Source: Bacteroidales bacterium
Lineage (GTDB): Bacteria; Bacteroidota; Bacteroidia; Bacteroidales; F082
NCBI GenBank assembly: GCA_016285355.1
Contig: JAEEQP010000008.1
Location: forward strand, 38,529 to 102,528
Reading direction: 5' to 3'
DNA length: 64,000 bases
The notes under the pieces are model-generated. The model did no database searches and was not told where the DNA came from. It saw only the letters and a list, made by a program, of their open reading frames with translations. Position 1 is the first letter of the stretch, and each line of letters opens with the position of its first letter. Of this stretch, positions 9,657-17,805 are shown piece by piece. The position numbers were made by a program, and so were the translations under genes.

Positions 9657-11021
9657 TTAAAATGGTTTGAAATAATCCCGCTCGTTATCTTCAGAATCAT
9701 CAAGAAACCCCTTGGCTTCTACCTTGATTTCTACTGGGAAAGTTTCTCTGGCAAGATCAATTAAGCGTTCCCAGCTTCGGTTTCGGTATTCTCTGAAACG
9801 GTCGCCAAATTGTTGCAAGGCAATCTTTTGGTCGGGCTCCTCCGATAAAAATGATGGTATATTTTGTTGAAGATATTTGTTCCATGCAATGAATTTAACC
9901 ACAGTGTTTGTGTTTCCTGTTTGTATTAACAGTTGAATACGTCCTTTCAAATCTGACAGGAAATACAATGTCGGTTTGTAGTTGAGCAACAACTTTATGT
10001 ATTTATCAGGGTTGTTATAAAAATCAGCACAGTCAAATGCGGTACGACTATAGCGATAATAGTTGTCCGCTGCATATATCCATGGTTTATAATTGCGATT
10101 CAAAAGGCGTTTGACACGCCCGAACAAGAGGCTTTCAGCTTCGTCGTCATTAAGACGCATGTGTGTGTTTGCCAATACTTGGTAGTACTGTATTTGAGAC
10201 AATCTGCTTTTGTCGATGTTAAAGCCCTCCTTTTTGGCAAGGCGCATACAAAGAAATTGGTAATCGGCCTTCCCCAACTCTTCTTGATGCATCAAGACAT
10301 AATCCAGAGGAAATCTGTGCATAATGACCCTAGCACATTCAGGTTCACCATAAGACAGCCATGCTTTCTCAACATCGGGCATAATGGCATCATCCCACCA
10401 ATTATTCAGTAATATGTCTAACCAGTCCCTCTTATGTAATGATTTTGCAGATAAGACAGCCTTTATAATTTGGATTTGACATGGCAGAGATTGCCCCCAG
10501 AAACGCATTTCGAGAAAGACAGAAGCATCACTTCTTTCCTGGTTGTTGCTCGACTGAAGTTTGTCCATCAGTTGTTTTATTGGATATTGCTCCTCTTCTG
10601 GTGTTACAATGATGGTTTTTTCATCTGGTTTCACTGGAATAATCCTGCCAAATGATATACTAGTAGTCCTTTCAATGTAGTTTTTTTCAACAAACTCAGG
10701 CTCACTTTTTAGCAGCTTGTTCAAAACACTAATGGCACGTGTCGGGTTTTCCTCATACAAGCTATAGAACCTTTGGGCATTCAAACTATCCGTGCCAAAT
10801 TCTTGATGCACTAATGCATCGGGGAGGTATCTTAGGATGCAGAGTTCATCCATAATGATGAAATCCTGTTCGTTAAGTTCAATCTCATCAAGCCTTTTAT
10901 TTAGTGCTTTAGCTATTTCCAATTCTTTTATTCTTGGATCATCATCACTTATGAGTGAAAGCTGATCTCTAAGCGTTTTGGCAATGTCATTAAATTGTTC
11001 GGTATCGTTTGGCATAATCAT
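9657..11021 (-). CDS. Uncharacterised 454-residue protein, last gene of the retron-linked cluster
   Basis: I do not recognise a domain. The protein is soluble, has no signal peptide, and looks mostly alpha-helical. The N-terminal part is acidic (ISDDDPRIKELEIAKALNKR near residue 30). The middle has repeated helix-pair-like segments with aromatic residues (NYKPWIYAADNYYRYSR near 320), which could suit a HEAT/TPR-like scaffold, but this is only an impression. It starts 15 nt after the lipoprotein gene, in a run of same-strand genes leading back to the reverse transcriptase. It is AT-richer than the flanking housekeeping genes. Confidence 0.7.
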   Translation of the reverse strand: MIMPNDTEQFNDIAKTLRDQLSLISDDDPRIKELEIAKALNKRLDEIELNEQDFIIMDELCILRYLPDALVHQEFGTDSLNAQRFYSLYEENPTRAISVLNKLLKSEPEFVEKNYIERTTSISFGRIIPVKPDEKTIIVTPEEEQYPIKQLMDKLQSSNNQERSDASVFLEMRFWGQSLPCQIQIIKAVLSAKSLHKRDWLDILLNNWWDDAIMPDVEKAWLSYGEPECARVIMHRFPLDYVLMHQEELGKADYQFLCMRLAKKEGFNIDKSRLSQIQYYQVLANTHMRLNDDEAESLLFGRVKRLLNRNYKPWIYAADNYYRYSRTAFDCADFYNNPDKYIKLLLNYKPTLYFLSDLKGRIQLLIQTGNTNTVVKFIAWNKYLQQNIPSFLSEEPDQKIALQQFGDRFREYRNRSWERLIDLARETFPVEIKVEAKGFLDDSEDNERDYFKPF

Positions 11022-11036
11022 TACAAATTAAAATCC

Positions 11037-11861
11037 TTAATAGCTATAGTGTAACACAGTGGTTTCATTTATTGTAGTATCCATCAGTTGCTCTTGCCTG
11101 ACCGCCACACTTTTATAAGGTCTGCCGTCACGGAAATAGTAAGTCGTGGAATCGGAGCAACAAGCCCCATCACTTGTAAGTAACAACAAGGTTTCATTGG
11201 TTGGGTCAAATTTGCAATATGTCCGACAAGTTTCCGTGGATAATCTGTAAAAAGGCTCATTTCGGATTTGCATAAAGCCTTCATGGAAATCCGAATAGAA
11301 AGTAAAATCCTCGCAGTCAAGCCAATCATCCTTATCTAATTCTCTGTATGGTCTGGGAGAACCACAAATGACAAGATCTTTTTTGCCATCAAAATTGTAA
11401 TCCGCAAATCCCACAATGGCCCTCCAATCCAAATAGGGCTGCATTGATTCTTCGTAATACTGATTCAGGACTATCGTGTCTGGACTTTCCTCCAATCGCG
11501 TTTCGTCAAACCAAACGTCCACATTGATTTCATGGGTTAGCATTTTCGTCGTGTCGGAGTTTGAGAAATAAAAATAGCCCGTCCCGGAAAAGAGTTGCGT
11601 TTTGTCACAAAGCCAATGGATCTTGACATTGTAGCCATTGATAAGCTGGTCATAGACGAACCATTTTTCATAGAGGCCTTTTCTCGTTTGTCGGCTTGGG
11701 TTATCTCCATATTGTGTAACGCTGAAAGAATCAATAATCCTATCTCGTGGAATCATGCTCATTTCGGTTGTGTTTTCGGTTTCTGTTTGCGTCTGTTTCT
11801 TTCCTTCACATGACCACAGGAAGAATGACACAATAACTAATGCCATGATTTTATAACACAT
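11037..11861 (-). CDS. Uncharacterised lipoprotein in the retron-linked cluster
   Basis: About 274 residues. The preferred start at 11861 gives an N-terminus MCYKIMALVIVSFFLWSC, in which SFFLWSC is a lipobox-like site. An ATG at 11846 would leave a very short signal, and the longer frame starting at 11900 adds residues that mirror the end of the upstream gene. The mature part is rich in aromatic and acidic residues. One stretch (GFADYNFDGKKDLVICGSP) resembles the VCBS/FG-GAP style calcium-binding loop DxNxDGxxD found in many Bacteroidota lipoproteins. It overlaps the upstream stop by 11 nt and is followed after 15 nt by the 454-residue gene. The function is unknown, and a lipoprotein is unexpected in a retron transcript. 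Confidence 0.68.
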   Translation of the reverse strand: MCYKIMALVIVSFFLWSCEGKKQTQTETENTTEMSMIPRDRIIDSFSVTQYGDNPSRQTRKGLYEKWFVYDQLINGYNVKIHWLCDKTQLFSGTGYFYFSNSDTTKMLTHEINVDVWFDETRLEESPDTIVLNQYYEESMQPYLDWRAIVGFADYNFDGKKDLVICGSPRPYRELDKDDWLDCEDFTFYSDFHEGFMQIRNEPFYRLSTETCRTYCKFDPTNETLLLLTSDGACCSDSTTYYFRDGRPYKSVAVRQEQLMDTTINETTVLHYSY

Positions 11862-11949
11862 TGCGCATCTGGTGAACTCGCAGGAGGGATATCTGCTCAT
11901 CGATTAAATTTTCATTATAAATTATATTTGTATTATAACACATTGCGCA
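11850..11949. repeat. 17-bp direct repeat at a gene junction
   Basis: TTATAACACATTGCGCA occurs at 11851-11867 and again at 11933-11949. It spans the end of the 362-residue gene and the start of the lipoprotein gene. In protein terms both copies encode a CAMCY-like stretch in the same frame. This suggests a short duplication or a recombination join. Confidence 0.65.
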
Positions 11950-12939
11950 GGGCTCAAAGCCCAATACATCTAGTAATTTTCTGTCAAACTTCAATTCTGG
12001 ATTATAAGTCTTTAAATACAAATCTTTCAAATCTTTAATTATATCCATCTTTCTAGGATGAATATATCTCAAGACTTTTTTAATATCCTCTTCAGAGTAC
12101 TGTGTGGGATTGTACATTATTGGTTTATTTGGGTTATTCCCAATATAAGATAAATAAGCGAAACGAATAAAAATATCAGTGCGTTTTTTATCTTCCTTTG
12201 CCCACGAAAACAAATCATCCAATTGGTGATATATGTTGTCGTTTATTATTTCAACACTAGCATTATCAAACTCTGCAAATCCAGAGTTGCTCTTAGTCTC
12301 AACCTCAAAACTATGGATATGCGTTCCAAAAACTAGATTAAGTTTGAAGACAAAAGCATCCGGCTTTGTTAATCTAAGAGACTCATTCTCCTTCCACCAT
12401 TTACGGAACTCCTTTATCTTTTCTATAACCTCCTGCGGCAAATCGCTACCGCCTCTAACTTGCCATTTATGGGACTCCTTTGTCTTTTCTAACTCCTTTA
12501 TCTTTTCTATTACCTCCTGCGGCGAATCAACACCGCCTTCAATTTGCCTCTTTAGTTTTTCTATTATTTTTTCAATAACTTGGTCAATTATCTCATCAGG
12601 AATTCTTATTCTTTCAAATTCAGCATGCAGCCTTTCACAGTCGCAATTATCATGATAAGATGGCGACCTCTCTGGTTGTACATATCTATAACTATCATGG
12701 GGTTTTTCTATTCTGTGATACTTATAAACTGCCTTTTCCATGTTTTTGCAGAAAGACTTGTAAACAAGTAAATCATTCACTTCCCAACGAGCAAACAACG
12801 CTGTTGGATTGCTTTGATCGATGGTTTTTCCGTTAGGTGCAGTCCAAATGATAGGATCATCAAACTTATAATCCTTGTCTTTTGGAACCTCAAATCCTTT
12901 TGTTATTCTATGGAAGTTATAATTGGTGATGTATGCCAT
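11851..12939 (-). CDS. Uncharacterised 362-residue protein downstream of the retron accessory gene
   Basis: No family recognised. No signal peptide or membrane segment. The N-terminal third is rich in aromatic and charged residues. Residues about 120-200 are strongly charged and helical and contain a duplicated unit (GGVDSPQEVIEKIKELEK and GGSDLPQEVIEKIKEFRK), suggesting a coiled-coil or helical linker built by internal duplication. The C-terminal half (about 205-362) has the look of a compact alpha/beta domain and ends with two close cysteines in CAMCYN. It starts 16 nt after the HEPN-like gene on the same strand, so co-transcription with the retron is likely. Confidence 0.72.
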   Translation of the reverse strand: MAYITNYNFHRITKGFEVPKDKDYKFDDPIIWTAPNGKTIDQSNPTALFARWEVNDLLVYKSFCKNMEKAVYKYHRIEKPHDSYRYVQPERSPSYHDNCDCERLHAEFERIRIPDEIIDQVIEKIIEKLKRQIEGGVDSPQEVIEKIKELEKTKESHKWQVRGGSDLPQEVIEKIKEFRKWWKENESLRLTKPDAFVFKLNLVFGTHIHSFEVETKSNSGFAEFDNASVEIINDNIYHQLDDLFSWAKEDKKRTDIFIRFAYLSYIGNNPNKPIMYNPTQYSEEDIKKVLRYIHPRKMDIIKDLKDLYLKTYNPELKFDRKLLDVLGFEPCAMCYNTNIIYNENLIDEQISLLRVHQMRNVL

Positions 12940-12955: not shown

Positions 12956-13681
12956 TTATCTGAAAACAGCATTTTTTACTGTGTTCACGAGTGTGTTTAG
13001 AACCTTTTCTACTTCTTCATATGGAGTTTTCGACACCCATATTTTCAGTTTTTCGCTTTTATCATCCTTATCACCAGATAGTAAACTTCTATGGCTTTGC
13101 ACATTTCTTGCTTGATATATTTCCTGAAATAATGAATAGGTTACACCATAAGCCAAATTTGTTTCGACTCTAATAAGGTTTAACTTGTTGCTATAAGTAA
13201 CAATGTCGCCTTTTACTTTACAATAGAACTTGGGGTCTTTAGCATCAATAGCCATTTCATAATAACCATTGCACTTGTTTCTAAGCTCTTCCTCTGTTAG
13301 ATACTTGGTATAGCAATAGTAGTTTACAATACCTTCTGCCTGCAGATTTGCATAACGGCAAAATTCAAGAAAATCAGGTTCGTGTTTTCTCACGCCACAT
13401 CGGTATCGTAACATCTCTCTCCAATCGGCTTCAAGCTTTAAACGAAGCACTTCATCCTTAACAAAAGAATAATCAATTTGTATAGCCATTTCGTCTATGA
13501 TATAATCTATGGCCAAATATCTTTCAATGTTGGAAATCATATCATTATTGCCACAAATAGGATTTGCACAGCCCCATCTGGTCTGCAACTCTCTATGCAG
13601 CCACTCGTTTCCTGGCTGTTTAGAGAGTTGAGCGATTTTATCTATTGTTTTTATTATGGCTTCCCGATTATCCATAGTCAT
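12956..13681 (-). CDS. HEPN-like protein coupled to the retron reverse transcriptase
   Basis: 241 residues. The start codon overlaps the RT stop in an ATGA, which implies translational coupling. The helix with EFCRYANLQAEGIVNYY (about 106-122) and the later R192-N193-x3-H197 (ARNVQSHRS) match the usual layout of HEPN domains, whose RN-x3-H motif forms the RNase active site in many toxins and abortive-infection proteins. This is motif-level evidence only; the region between is long and the fold has not been tested. In retrons the protein next to the RT is normally the effector held inactive by the RT-msDNA complex, so an RNA-cleaving toxin is the natural hypothesis. Low GC compared with flanking genes. 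Confidence 0.72.
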   Translation of the reverse strand: MTMDNREAIIKTIDKIAQLSKQPGNEWLHRELQTRWGCANPICGNNDMISNIERYLAIDYIIDEMAIQIDYSFVKDEVLRLKLEADWREMLRYRCGVRKHEPDFLEFCRYANLQAEGIVNYYCYTKYLTEEELRNKCNGYYEMAIDAKDPKFYCKVKGDIVTYSNKLNLIRVETNLAYGVTYSLFQEIYQARNVQSHRSLLSGDKDDKSEKLKIWVSKTPYEEVEKVLNTLVNTVKNAVFR

Positions 13682-15153
13682 TCTGAAGTATTGGTTTCGA
13701 TGAGAGTGGCAAGATCATTCAAAGCGGATAGGACATTGCCATATTCCATCGATGGGGTTAATAGTGTTTGGGATTTCTGTGATCCAGCCCCAAACGTTTC
13801 ATTACACAGTTTCTCAAATCTATTGGCATAGGACTTATACGTAGAGTCAGTTTCACCCTTTACCATTTTGAGATACATGAGTTTTCCTAAGATAATGTTT
13901 TCTATATGATGTTCACCCTTAAATCTAAGGTTGCGTATATTAGTCTCGGCATAGTGTTTGGCAAAGATGGCTTGTGCTTCGTCATACCCTTTCACCTCCC
14001 AATTATGAATCAATAAACGCAATTGCTTGAGATACTTACGAGAAACGTTTGTTTTGGAGTTCACGGTCAAGCCAGTTACTTCTTGCCTCATTCCCCGATG
14101 ACAGAGTCGCGTCTTATCCTGATTGATTTTGAGACCTTCTTCGTTCTCGATAATGTTGCGCAAAGAAGTGCAAAACTTGCCATCCTCGGCAAAGACATTC
14201 TTCATGCCACTGAAAGTAATATCATCAGCATAACGAGTATATTTCAAACCGTATGCTTTTGCAAGACGAGTAAGTTTGAAATCCAACTTCTCACAAATAA
14301 TATTGGTAATGGTAGGCGAAGTTGGTGCTCCTTGTGGAAGAACCTTGTTTTCTCCTTTTTGATAACAGCACAAGTCGCTAATCAAACTCGCCACCTTTTC
14401 ATTCAGACAGAATGGTTTTACCAACAACCGCTTGAATACACGACCTGAAGTAATAGAAGGGAAGAAATCCTTTAGGTCAATATTATAAACAAAGTTTTGG
14501 CCAAGATGTACTTGGGCGTTTGTGACAACAGATTTGCCTTTCACAAAACCCATCGCAGCGGCATTGGGATTATACACCTCTTGCAGTACGAAATTCAACG
14601 CTTGCTGGATGTTCTTTAGTTCACTGCACGGTGCATCAATGGTGCGAAATTCTCCTTTTTTCTTCTTGGGTATTTTAAAGGTAACATAACGGCCTTTACG
14701 TGCCATTAACTTCAAACGGCCAACAGTGGTTTTTACTGCATCCATGCCATGCAATGCCTGCAATGCCATATTCAGAACAACACATAAATCATCTATTCCA
14801 TTCATTGAATGCCACCCCTCAACAATCTTTGCCAATTGTTGTTTGAGATCTTCACCAGTCAGAGGACTACCTCCATATTTTGGCAATTCATCAATTTTGG
14901 AAAGGGCATTGGCTTGGGTCGAAATGAATTCTTCATCTGGCACTTTTGCGGAATCAATATCTTCCAATTCCGTAACAGCCGCAGCCACTCTAGCCAAATC
15001 ATCCTCAATAGGTCCAATGGCAAAGAGAACATCCTCGGCTTTTTCAATTCCAGAAGAAACCTGTTCAGAAACCTCAGTTTTCTTTGAAGCATTGGTTTGT
15101 CCAAGCAACTTCTTGAAGTCCTGCTTTGTTGTTATGTTCTTTTTCTTTGCCAT
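13678..15153 (-). CDS. Retron reverse transcriptase with long N-terminal extension
   Basis: 491 residues. RT blocks in order: KGEFRTIDAP (166-175), the retron-specific NAxxH motif as NAQVH (212-216), DLKDFFPSI (226-234) with the first catalytic aspartate, LPQGAPTSP (272-280), the catalytic box YADD (308-311), and the retron VTG motif (359-361) in the region that recognises the msr. NAxxH and VTG together separate retron RTs from group II intron and DGR enzymes. Residues 1 to about 150 are an extra charged helical region absent from the roughly 300-400-residue classical retron RTs. The enzyme should prime on the 2'-OH of a guanosine in the msr RNA and copy the msd. A fitting RNA lies just upstream. 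Confidence 0.95.
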   Translation of the reverse strand: MAKKKNITTKQDFKKLLGQTNASKKTEVSEQVSSGIEKAEDVLFAIGPIEDDLARVAAAVTELEDIDSAKVPDEEFISTQANALSKIDELPKYGGSPLTGEDLKQQLAKIVEGWHSMNGIDDLCVVLNMALQALHGMDAVKTTVGRLKLMARKGRYVTFKIPKKKKGEFRTIDAPCSELKNIQQALNFVLQEVYNPNAAAMGFVKGKSVVTNAQVHLGQNFVYNIDLKDFFPSITSGRVFKRLLVKPFCLNEKVASLISDLCCYQKGENKVLPQGAPTSPTITNIICEKLDFKLTRLAKAYGLKYTRYADDITFSGMKNVFAEDGKFCTSLRNIIENEEGLKINQDKTRLCHRGMRQEVTGLTVNSKTNVSRKYLKQLRLLIHNWEVKGYDEAQAIFAKHYAETNIRNLRFKGEHHIENIILGKLMYLKMVKGETDSTYKSYANRFEKLCNETFGAGSQKSQTLLTPSMEYGNVLSALNDLATLIETNTSE

Positions 15154-15182
15154 ACCAATAGTTTCAACTTACTCACTTTTCC

Positions 15183-15397
15183 ACGATTGTCACCACTTGC
15201 ACCATTCATTACTTCAGAAACAGTAATAATCTCAATAATATACAATATCATAATACATAATATCACGAATCATAATACCATCAAGGACTAACATTGCGAA
15301 TCATGCGCCTAGCACATGAACCTGCCGATGCAGCAGGCGCTGCTGTATGGCTAACCACACAGCGGGTCTAATTCAGGGTGCTTATGGTGACAATCGT
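15183..15397 (-). ncRNA. Retron msr-msd RNA with a1/a2 inverted repeat
   Basis: On the minus strand the a1 segment (15397-15377) and a2 segment (15203-15183) are reverse complements over 18 of 21 positions: a 13-bp run built on CGATTGTCACCA, three mismatches, then 5 bp. They enclose a 215-nt RNA that ends 29 nt before the RT start, the standard retron arrangement and size. Inside, an msr hairpin has a perfect 9-bp stem with loop TTAG (15342-15363, one G-U pair). A second GC-rich hairpin is closed by GCGCCT/AGGCGC (15305-15340). An AT-rich msd portion follows (about 15204-15300). The likely branching G is in TTAG just inside a1 (about 15368), which is a guess by analogy. Confidence 0.85.
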
Positions 15398-15466
15398 TTC
15401 AAAGAACTTTAGGCGTTAGCATTTATTTTTCGAGAGCGCTTTGCCTGTTTTCTCTCGTTTTCGTTT

Positions 15467-15475
15467 GCAAAACTA
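15467..15475 (-). promoter_or_regulatory. Candidate -7 element for the retron transcript
   Basis: TAGTTTTGC on the minus strand fits TAnnTTTGC. It would start an RNA near 15460, about 60 nt ahead of a1. No good TTTG partner is visible at 19-21 bp. The leader between contains a 6-bp stem (CGAGAG/CTCTCG, near 15431-15457). Read-through from the nuclease gene upstream is also possible, since no terminator separates them. Confidence 0.45.
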
Positions 15476-15492
15476 CAACCCTGCTGCGCAAC

Positions 15493-16701
15493 CTATTTTC
15501 GCGAATTTTCTTTTTTCAGTTCCAGTTCCCTCACCGTGCGCTCCACCACCTGTTCAAGCTGGTAGGTGGATACGCCAAGCGGCTTGTTGATGTCGCGCAA
15601 CGACCATTCCACAACAGTCTTGTCGGTCGATTTGCAGATGATCAGCCCCACAGTGGGGTTGTCGCCCTCGCCACGCAGCAACTCGTCAACGGCGGTAACG
15701 TAGAAATTCAGCTTGCCGGCAAACTCGGGGATATACTTCACCACCTTCAGCTCAATGACGACATAGCGGTGCTGCGGGATGTGATAGAACAACAAATCGG
15801 GGAAGAAGGTCTGTCCACCAGGCATCTGCAACTCCATCTGTCGCCCCACATACGAAAAGCCCTTGCCCAACTCCATCAAGAAGCGCGTGACATTCGAAAC
15901 CAGCGCGTCCTCCAAGTCTTTCTCCTCGTATTCCTCGCTCATCGAAAGGAACCCGAAATGATATGGATCCTTTAGTATCTCTTTGGCCAACTGGCTCTGC
16001 GGAGCTGGAAGCGTATGCTCAAAGTTGGTCACGGCTGCCCCTTGACTGCCAAAAAGATTGGCAGCCATCTGGCTCTCAAGTCGGCTGCGGCTCCAGCCTT
16101 CTTCAGTCACCTTATTAATATAGAAAATGGCCTCGTCGAGGGTTTGGCATTTTGAGATAATGAGGACATGATGTTTCCATGGGACCAGCCCAAAGATTTC
16201 AGGCATTTCCAATTGGTCAGCAGCTTGCTGACCTTTTTCGTCAGCAGGTTGCTGACGAATTGCAGCACCCAATTCGTCACCAGCTTGGTGACGAATTACA
16301 ACATTTGGTTCATCACTTTGAACAGCACTAATTTCGTCACCAGCTTGGTGACGAATTTCGTCAACGACTCGTTGACGATTTGCAACTCTCTCATTATAAA
16401 AGGCATACCAACGCTTCATATACTTGAGGTTGGTCACCGAGAAACCTGTTTCTTCGGGAAAAGCAGTCCTCAAATCAAGGCTCAACTGATCGAAGAAACC
16501 GCTGCCCCATTTGCTTTCTGCCCGTAGTTCCACCATGTCTCTTCCCAAACTCCAATAAAACTCAAGCATGGCAGTGTTCACACGAACCGCCGCCTTGACT
16601 TGGCTTTGGCGGAATCGCTGCTTGATGTCGGCCATCCATTGCACATAGCCCTCGTCGGCAGTCATCATGTCACGGGATACGAATGTCGGTTTGTCGCTCA
16701 T
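15493..16701 (-). CDS. PDDEXK nuclease domain protein (DUF1016, YhcG-like)
   Basis: 402 residues, starting at the ATG at 16701 (MSDKPTFVSRD); the upstream in-frame ATG at 16734 is less likely. The N-terminal DUF1016_N domain covers about 15-105 (FYWSLGRDM, FSVTNLKYMKRWYAFY). The C-terminal DUF1016/PDDEXK domain covers about 160-390, with catalytic-type residues in FFPDLLFYHIPQHRYVVIELK (D then E-x-K). YhcG-type proteins are found near restriction and other defence genes. Between the domains lies a Gln/Asp-rich linker with repeated RHQAGDE units, encoded by an array of palindromes. It lies 42 nt after the WYL regulator gene and directly before the retron on the same strand. Confidence 0.9.
   Translation of the reverse strand: MSDKPTFVSRDMMTADEGYVQWMADIKQRFRQSQVKAAVRVNTAMLEFYWSLGRDMVELRAESKWGSGFFDQLSLDLRTAFPEETGFSVTNLKYMKRWYAFYNERVANRQRVVDEIRHQAGDEISAVQSDEPNVVIRHQAGDELGAAIRQQPADEKGQQAADQLEMPEIFGLVPWKHHVLIISKCQTLDEAIFYINKVTEEGWSRSRLESQMAANLFGSQGAAVTNFEHTLPAPQSQLAKEILKDPYHFGFLSMSEEYEEKDLEDALVSNVTRFLMELGKGFSYVGRQMELQMPGGQTFFPDLLFYHIPQHRYVVIELKVVKYIPEFAGKLNFYVTAVDELLRGEGDNPTVGLIICKSTDKTVVEWSLRDINKPLGVSTYQLEQVVERTVRELELKKENSRK
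16215..16377. repeat. Array of five short palindromes inside the DUF1016 gene
   Basis: Five imperfect palindromes sit within 163 bp of coding sequence: 16215-16233 (GGTCAGCAG...), 16237-16261 (TTCGTCAGCA...), 16271-16297 and 16330-16358 (each TTCGTCACCAGCTTGGTGACGAA), and 16357-16377 (CGTCAACGACTCGTTGACG). Each has stems of 7-12 bp and a 3-5 nt centre. They keep the reading frame and encode RHQAGDE-like repeats in the interdomain linker. Confidence 0.85.
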
Positions 16702-16722
16702 CTTTTTAAGGATTAGTGAAAT

Positions 16723-16731
16723 GCAAAGATA
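16723..16731 (-). promoter_or_regulatory. Candidate -7 element before the DUF1016 gene
   Basis: TATCTTTGC on the minus strand, about 22 nt before the ATG at 16701, matches TAnnTTTGC. No TTTG lies at the usual distance; the region upstream is the end of the WYL gene. Confidence 0.4.
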
Positions 16732-16743
16732 CAAATAAATCCT

Positions 16744-17805
16744 TTACAGCATCTGATATGCATGGAATTGTGCCGTCACGCGGTCGCGCACCTTCTGCTG
16801 TATGTCGGCGGGCGAGAGCACCAACAGGTCTTTGCCGAAAGAGGACAATTCGCGGATAAGCTCATAGTTCTCTATGCAGTCAATGGAGAAGAATGCGCCT
16901 CCTTCGAGCTTTGGGTATTGTTGGCGCAATTCCTTTTCCCTTTCCCCTTTGTAATGCCGCTGAGACTCATGTAAAGGTTTGGTGGCCACATAATCCTTGG
17001 AAAAATCACTCACCCAGAACAAGATGGTCTGCAACGGATTGCCGTCGATGAGCGTCACCCCGATGATGTCTTCAAAGCGCTCGTTGAGGTCGCCATCGTA
17101 TTCCTTATAACTACGGGAAGGCAAAGGGACAAACTTATCGATACGGTCGAGTGCAAACGAGAGTATTTTGCCGTCATTGTCGGCGGCAACGATAAGATAC
17201 CAACGGCGGTTGTATTCTTTAAGCAGGTAAGGATGCACAACGGTCTTGCGGTCCTCATCGGGCGTGTCAAATCGGTGGTAATGCAATTCCACGACCTGTT
17301 TCTGCGAGATTACAGTGAACAATTCACCCAGCAGGTTCTTGCCTTCCAAAGGATTCTTTGTGAATGACACTATCTGGCGGTCGGTTTTCACTTTGAGGCT
17401 TTCCCTCAGCCTTTCCAAGCCCACAAGAGTTGGCAGTCCGTCAAATTGCCCGAGTAGCGTGAAAGCCTCTCCAAGCAGGTGTTTTTCGTCATCGGTAAGT
17501 TTCTGCGTAAATATGGAGAAAGACGGGTCGGCATACCTGTGGCAACTTTTCTTGATGGTTTTGAGGGTTCGTTGGCTGACATCATCAACCTGATAATGCT
17601 CTATCTCTGCCAGGAAAGGCCCTTCGTTTTCAATATAATTAAGGTCAAGCTCAATGGTTCGGCGACTGACAGGCTCTTGATTCATTTCGGCCAATTTCTC
17701 ATTGACGAGCCGAAGCAAATCCTCAGTAGAATAATGGTGATAGCGGTTGGCTAACAACTTGTCGAGGATGTAGTAGCGTGTTACGGCGTTTTTGTTTGCG
17801 GGCAT
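16744..17805 (-). CDS. WYL-domain transcriptional regulator
   Basis: 353 residues. An N-terminal winged helix-turn-helix occupies about 1-75 (RYYILDKLLANRYHHYSTED and SRRTIELDLNYIE). The central WYL domain is at about 165-240, with HPYLLKEYNRRWYLIVAADN carrying the core residues. A WCX-like C-terminal region follows to the end. WYL proteins bind nucleic-acid ligands or nucleotides, and several control phage-defence operons (for example BrxR/CapW types). Its position directly ahead of a nuclease and a retron on the same strand suggests it regulates this island, which is an inference. A -7-like TACCTTTGC lies upstream at 17825-17833. Confidence 0.92.
   Translation of the reverse strand: MPANKNAVTRYYILDKLLANRYHHYSTEDLLRLVNEKLAEMNQEPVSRRTIELDLNYIENEGPFLAEIEHYQVDDVSQRTLKTIKKSCHRYADPSFSIFTQKLTDDEKHLLGEAFTLLGQFDGLPTLVGLERLRESLKVKTDRQIVSFTKNPLEGKNLLGELFTVISQKQVVELHYHRFDTPDEDRKTVVHPYLLKEYNRRWYLIVAADNDGKILSFALDRIDKFVPLPSRSYKEYDGDLNERFEDIIGVTLIDGNPLQTILFWVSDFSKDYVATKPLHESQRHYKGEREKELRQQYPKLEGGAFFSIDCIENYELIRELSSFGKDLLVLSPADIQQKVRDRVTAQFHAYQML

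Follow-up and report, generated by a model that had tools for sequence, protein, structure and literature searches.

A retron RNA and reverse transcriptase kept beside exchanged putative effector genes in a Bacteroidales bacterium

The DNA directly upstream of a reverse transcriptase (RT) gene in a contig of a Bacteroidales bacterium, probably one from the gut, raises the question of whether it specifies a complete retron and, if so, what such a retron would control. The window, as the whole stretch of 64,000 nucleotides analyzed is called here, carries on its minus strand a structured RNA, the RT gene and two further open reading frames, ORF2 and ORF3 (Table 1). The best explanation is a complete retron in which an msDNA-forming RT–RNA particle would restrain a HEPN-like ORF2 protein until release is triggered by phage, with exchangeable effector cassettes. 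The probability of this reading is put at roughly 0.7.

The RNA is bounded by two 21-nt arms, a1 and a2. Read on the minus strand, 15397–15377 and 15203–15183 show inverse complementarity at 18 of 21 positions. Their core pairs fully (13/13), and 173 nt lie between them. The original prediction had described these arms, and the description was borne out: when the 300-nt region was shuffled 200 times with dinucleotide content preserved, pairing never exceeded 16/21 and 12/13, short of the real values. The RNA from 15410 to 15177 has a folding energy of −91.9 kcal/mol (z = −8.0), equaled by none of 200 shuffles, and forms paired arms, three msr stem-loops and a long msd hairpin. The stem-loop with the TTAG loop had been called a perfect 9-bp hairpin. 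Nine pairs are present (15363–15355 with 15350–15342), of which eight are Watson–Crick and one is G–U. As had also been stated, the RNA lies directly upstream of an RT with NAxxH and VTG motifs; the RT begins 29 nt past the end of a2.

Related loci were fetched from genome contigs by RT alignment, and the best 80 of 576 confirmed ones were used. RNA alignment A5 comprises the window and 12 of these best 80 of 576 loci (L009–L011, with a misplaced RT start, were omitted). Conserved in A5 are CTTTGA, CTGAATTAGA, CTGCTxATCGGCAG, and TCTGAAGTAA with variants. The 12 distinct rows include six near copies, and the structure was derived partly from the same alignment. In these rows 39 pairs over five helices are formed in 94.4% of cells, and both sides are changed in 26 of the 39. 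Helix 1, formed by a1 and a2, has both-side changes in 9 of 11 pairs, and the last pair of helix 2 (ATTA with TAAT) changes from A–U to U–A in three of the 12 distinct rows (L012, L013 and L015). None of 500 shuffles was as high on any of five measures, and sliding the 3′ partners by 1–3 columns lowered pairing to 30–49%. Because the relatives alter both arms together and show compensatory changes in all five helices, the RNA at 15183–15397 is, as judged by this comparison, a real retron RNA. The earlier claim of a complete msr-msd RNA is supported by these changes and by the place of the RNA adjoining a retron-type RT.

The CTTTGA motif was found 120–340 nt before the RT in 56 of the 79 loci with a usable RT start among the best 80 of 576, and was not found in 23. 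In 44 of the 56 anchored loci, a 10-nt word behind the motif is complementary at 9–10 of 10 positions to the sequence around the RT start, as expected of a1 and a2, and no such pair was found in the other 12. Among the 44, 25 match at 10/10 and 21 different word pairs occur, some of which represent the same arm in a shifted register. In a control that used the a2 region of a different locus, 37 of 560 reached 9–10/10.

A covariance model of the msr, built from 15 rows, has only 8 base pairs and is hence largely a model of sequence. A search with it through 83 sources, the window and 82 loci (about 1 Mb), yielded 35 matches with E no higher than 1, of which 33 are just upstream of an RT and 2 elsewhere. 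The 33 are the 15 training rows and 18 others; one of the 18 is a near copy (L004), only L064 and L029 fall below E 0.01, and the others lie at 0.025–0.74. These matches are credible because of their location just upstream of an RT. From a set of 80 loci on viral contigs, L081 and L082 were included in the search and gave no match to the model. Comparison with curated covariance models did not back the prediction, as Rfam gave nothing at gathering level in the window. With E up to 10 allowed in the region 15150–15500, the sole matches were SAM-II, at 19.8 bits against a cut-off of 44, and tmRNA, at 12.6 bits against a cut-off of 47; both are taken as chance matches.

Table 1. Coordinates in the window of the retron RNA, its parts and the neighboring genes
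Feature	Position	Strand	Basis or remark
ORF3, 362 aa, third cassette gene	11851..12939	-	22 relatives; not retron-specific
ORF2, 241 aa, putative HEPN-like RNase effector; RNVQSHR at residues 192–198	12956..13681	-	A1, A4
First 30 ORF2 residues, counted from MDNRE, kept when the rest is exchanged	13586..13675	-	Protein identity and DNA similarity
Retron RT, 491 aa, RT domain from about residue 150, variable N-terminal extension	13678..15153	-	Pfam RVT_1, PADLOC, A3
a2 arm	15183..15203	-	Same pairing and covariation basis as a1
Conserved CTGAAGTAAT at presumed reverse-transcription start	15208..15217	-	Alignment A5
Predicted msd template, 80 nt, 25% GC, 15 G / 5 C	15213..15292	-	Boundaries by analogy with Ec86
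msr stem-loops 2 and 3 (CCTGCTGCATCGGCAGG and CATGTGCTAGGCGCATG)	15301..15341	-	Fold and helices 4 and 5
msr stem-loop 1, TTAG loop, 9 pairs including one G–U	15342..15363	-	Fold and helix 3
ATTA pairing with TAAT 15211–15208	15369..15372	-	Helix 2; closes a1/a2 stem beside presumed branch G 15368
a1 arm	15377..15397	-	Core 15397–15385; 18/21, core 13/13 with a2; helix 1
Leader hairpin CGAGAG...CTCTCG before retron RNA	15431..15457	-	Sequence; kept in L001–L005
YhcG/DUF1016 PDDEXK nuclease (PADLOC PDC-S02), directly upstream	15493..16734	-	PADLOC, Pfam
WYL-domain regulator, upstream	16744..17805	-	Pfam WYL 5.8e-12

Two features of a retron are present together: a retron-type RT with intact NAxxH (TNAQVHLG), YADD and VTG motifs, and an adjoining structured RNA bounded by a pairing a1 and a2. 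RVT_1 (6.2e-23) is the sole Pfam match of the RT, and its best-scoring PADLOC models are retron RTs. In PADLOC-DB 2023 the scores were 361 bits for RT-Protease_XI (2.1e-108), 334 for RT-TIR_XII, 308 for RT-Toprim_I-C, 271 for RT_XIII and 177 for RT_IX. A TIR-retron RT ranks first in NCBIfam, with 289 bits (cut-off 600). Residues of about 1–105 (14840–15153, minus strand) are variable behind a conserved basic start (KKK...) and are absent from shorter RTs such as that of L009. Alignment A3 comprises 32 of the 120 RTs listed.

Types XI (RT-protease), XII (RT-TIR) and I-C (RT-Toprim) are thus the closest by RT model. By their PADLOC names they have the effector fused to the RT, whereas here the partner is encoded by a separate, overlapping gene of another family, and no fused protease, TIR or Toprim domain was found in the 491-aa RT. 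The RT_XIII profile likewise extends about 140 positions ahead of the matched RT part, but the RT scores lower against it. ORF2 and ORF3 match nothing in PADLOC-DB 2023, and neither is matched significantly in NCBIfam release 20; the locus is set apart from type XIII by partner genes that we presume that type to have and PADLOC to include.

A divergent type IX retron, with ORF3 replacing the winged-helix protein, was also considered. According to PMC13405049, type IX combines an RT, a HEPN RNase and a DNA-binding protein of the winged-helix kind, and the HEPN protein of its member Kva2 is without the canonical motif, which ORF2 has. The likeness, a HEPN RNase held by an RT–msDNA particle, is one of analogy only. 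The RT is set apart by profile score (177 bits for RT_IX, 361 for RT-Protease_XI), the listed matches of ORF2 and of ORF3 include no winged-helix family, and ORF3 is present in 4 of the 40 ORF2 loci of the best 80 of 576. This assignment is therefore judged very unlikely. Because each of the types failed a tested feature (XIII by its presumed partners), this retron is left unassigned on profile and gene-content comparison and is not filed under XI, XII, I-C, IX or XIII. The literature searched, with most subscription papers outside its scope, listed no description of this RT + ORF2 system; absence from print is not claimed.

The original prediction covered neither the putative effector genes nor their exchange between relatives. 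The start of ORF2 overlaps the RT stop (ATGA). The protein has 45 relatives, and a member of its family follows the RT in 40 of the best 80 of 576 loci. Alignment A1 holds 35 of the 45 relatives, and A4 holds 33 of the 40 ORF2 loci, which with the window gives 34 members. D86, M90, E116, N120, R192 and H197 are invariant in all 34, and N193 and R198 are kept in at least 90% of them. The HEPN RNase signature given in PMC3710099 is R-x4-6-H with N, D or H after the R. RNVQSH of ORF2 has this spacing and the polar residue; among the 34 members, 20 have R-x4-H and 14 have R-x3-H, which lies outside R-x4-6-H.

Profile searches gave little. Among the 34 members, Pfam recognized one HEPN_Apea (E 0.0045) and PADLOC one AgaR (0.0038) and one Csx1 (0.01), with none for the ORF2 protein of the window in either. 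Using hhalign, 39 ORF2-family proteins were compared with 7 of 9 ApeA-like and 10 of 12 RiboL-PSP-like HEPN domains, partial ones having been dropped. Probabilities were 0.10% for ApeA-like and 1.26% for RiboL-PSP-like domains, against 0.24–0.31% for three non-HEPN control families; only the RiboL-PSP-like value exceeds the controls, and the aligned stretch spans the R..H motif in both HEPN families. A PDB profile search with ORF2 brought up designed helical proteins and ribosomal L29 and nothing else, in each case via N-terminal helices. ORF2 is likely a HEPN-like RNase because of its invariant R..H motif, which fits the HEPN signature; the profile searches did not confirm it.

ORF3 begins 16 nt past ORF2. 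This spacing would also suit a retron in which ORF2 is an adaptor or antitoxin and the toxic effector is ORF3 or another third gene, and it is consistent with that arrangement that the third genes of L003 (a WG-repeat protein), L004 (a NERD-helicase) and L005 (a relative of the latter) are exchanged along with ORF2. Such an arrangement is nevertheless unlikely. The ORF2 family is present in half of the loci (40 of the best 80 of 576), while ORF3 accompanies it in four of these 40 (L001, L002, L008 and L015) and directly follows it only in L001 and L002. ORF3 also stands beside other genes without a retron, and the R..H pair of ORF2 is invariant.

ORF3 gave no PDB match and no significant family in Pfam or NCBIfam. 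It is rare, with 22 relatives and occurrence in 3 of 393 genomes of the order. Six of the best 80 of 576 loci have it: apart from L001 and L002, it is near L009 and L015 and farther downstream in L008, from where this gene extends to the edge of L011. Regions L205, around L009, and L204, around L015, show it behind other genes, an AAA_15 ATPase among them, and in regions L202, L203 and L206 no RT or known partner was recognized. ORF3 looks like a portable accessory and not a part of the retron by itself.

Close relatives of the locus were compared. The window and L001–L005 have in common the WYL gene, the YhcG gene, the RNA and the RT, and the downstream gene at 9657–11021 is shared by all except L003, in which the contig ends. 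Over the shared upstream stretch the DNA of L001–L005 is 86–90% alike, with RNA and RT kept. That the RNA and RT are the remnant of a system no longer active is highly improbable given this retention, three open genes and intact RT motifs; a 50-residue in-frame insertion in the ORF3 of the window, absent from 21 of 22 relatives, would fit decay.

In L003, L004 and L005 the DNA similarity ends at 13587–13597, 85–95 nt (about 30 codons) into ORF2, and it resumes at 11015 in L004 and at 11852 in L005. The first 30 residues of ORF2 are identical at 26–29 of 30 positions in L001–L005 (26–27 in L003–L005), and the rest of the protein is 26–30% identical in L003–L005. In L002, ORF2 is 64% alike behind an N-terminal identity of 27/30, and ORF3 is present. 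By this comparison, the RT and RNA, as the putative sensor, have been kept in the same chromosomal slot while effector cassettes were exchanged.

Neighbor classes vary across the wider RT group as well. Among the best 80 of 576 loci, most of which are from Bacteroidota, 40 have the ORF2 family, 31 have a kinase-like partner or its companions and 9 have neither. In a tree of 81 RTs these three classes switch 15 times, where the minimum is 2 and shuffling gives a mean of 32.3, and well supported branches alone require at least 8 changes for ORF2. The close RTs L066 and L067/L078 bear different effectors.

The kinase-like class (L016, L028, L050 and others) is histidine-kinase-like, with PF22561 in the one representative scanned. 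It is accompanied by two proteins, of ~210 aa and ~580 aa, the larger with a weak iREC match, and in P0052 the kinase-like protein is fused to the RT. The N-terminal stretch of this class differs from that of the ORF2 family. A docking peptide common to both effector classes was considered and rejected: a profile built from 62 N-terminal residues in the ORF2 family matched no kinase-like partner. It recovered 40 of its 41 source proteins (L069 was missed) and otherwise only a fragment in L074.

The part of the RNA that the RT would copy was assigned by analogy. Conserved TT(A/T)GA and TCT(G/T)AAG(T/A)A stand at the places expected for the branch G and the copy start. The presumed branch G is 15368, and the msd was set at 15292–15213 because we take Ec86 to have its branch G and first copied base at the equivalent places. 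The locus resembles Ec86 (Eco1) in the a1/a2 stem, the adjoining presumed branch G, the stem-loops and the sequence at the presumed copy start, with TCTGACGTAA in Ec86 and TCTGAAGTAA here. The predicted DNA copy of about 80 nt would begin TTCAGAAACAG.

An msd without an obvious long hairpin had been predicted. This does not hold for the RNA, in which the msd folds at −16.5 kcal/mol with 29 pairs, 10 of them G–U, but it does hold for the predicted 80-nt DNA copy, which is nearly structureless at −0.3 kcal/mol. Ec86 DNA differs in this respect, giving −23.6 kcal/mol when treated alike. The msd RNA folds and its copy does not because the G–U pairs become A–C in DNA. Among the relatives, the copy is predicted to fold at −0.3 kcal/mol in L001–L005, −1.8 in L008, −2.1 in L015, −4.1 in L012, −5.9 in L007 and −7.8 in L013, and more strongly in L006 (−12.5), L014 (−13.4), L010 (−30.2), L011 (−31.3) and L009 (−40.7).

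A survey of the clade covered 56 loci from the best 80 of 576, using a fixed 90-nt stretch and a relaxed a1/a2 rule that may admit chance pairs. The DNA copy was weaker than −4 kcal/mol in 18 of the 56 (10 of 27 with ORF2, 8 of 25 with a kinase-like partner and 0 of 4 others), and L001–L005 gave −2.0 kcal/mol under the fixed 90-nt rule. The trait is therefore common in the clade and not unique. The idea that a structureless copy is a selected trait was rejected. Compared with shuffled sequences of equal composition, the copy is no less folded (z = +0.75 and +0.6), so that composition alone accounts for the lack of folding. The unfolded DNA copy is put forward as a prediction, and no selection is claimed for it.

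In the proposed mechanism, one transcript would give the msr-msd RNA, the RT, ORF2 and, judging by gene spacing, probably ORF3. The a1/a2 stem would present the presumed branch G, and the RT would copy about 80 nt, from 15213 to about 15292 by the Ec86 layout. The resulting RT–RNA–DNA particle would keep the HEPN-like ORF2 protein inactive, perhaps through the N-terminal module of the latter. The RNase would be freed when a phage factor binds the DNA or alters it, and would then cut RNA and stop the infected cell, the RT–RNA sensor remaining constant as effector cassettes are swapped. We infer msDNA synthesis, holding of the effector and its release by analogy, the last steps from type IX Kva2 and Eco8. 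A HEPN dimer is held at the core of Kva2 and a phage protein predicted to bind DNA remodels the complex (PMC13405049), and a phage single-strand binding protein binds the msDNA of Eco8 (PMC13158370).

PMC13158370 also gives the usual picture of msDNA as a stem-loop and mentions extra single-stranded regions in Eco8. At a guess, a structureless DNA would suit Eco8-like sensing of a single-strand-binding protein. A wider scheme is tentative and, taken as a whole, doubtful: a template folded with G–U pairs would yield an unfoldable, G-poor 80-nt msDNA that serves as bait for phage SSB, and this sensor would have been re-coupled repeatedly to unrelated effectors, at close range by cassette exchange with the break behind a short effector docking module.

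The window and L001–L005 represent a natural experiment, in which a very similar RT and RNA occupy the same slot with at least three different effector cassettes. Control of the effector by the sensor becomes testable by exchanging parts between cassettes, and the first 30 ORF2 residues stand out as a candidate for docking. Hairpin-less retron DNA, if true, would depart from the stem-loop picture of msDNA (PMC13158370) and would suggest another mode of sensing. A second effector class, that with the histidine-kinase-like protein, is also carried by this RT group.

In 56 of the best 80 of 576 loci a relative of the WYL regulator is located upstream of the RT at a distance of 5 kb or less, and for this reason the regulator may control the retron. 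Closer to the RNA, TAGTTTTG at 15475–15468 (minus strand) fits TAnnTTTG, which we take to be the consensus of the Bacteroides −7 box. AAATGCTAA also precedes the retron RNA, in the region 15431–15475 (minus strand). The insertion in ORF3 (12427–12576, minus strand) has VIEKI-like repeats and is shared with P0121. L008 and L011 share contig CACZUZ010000021, which carries two retron RTs of the clade with ORF3 between them.
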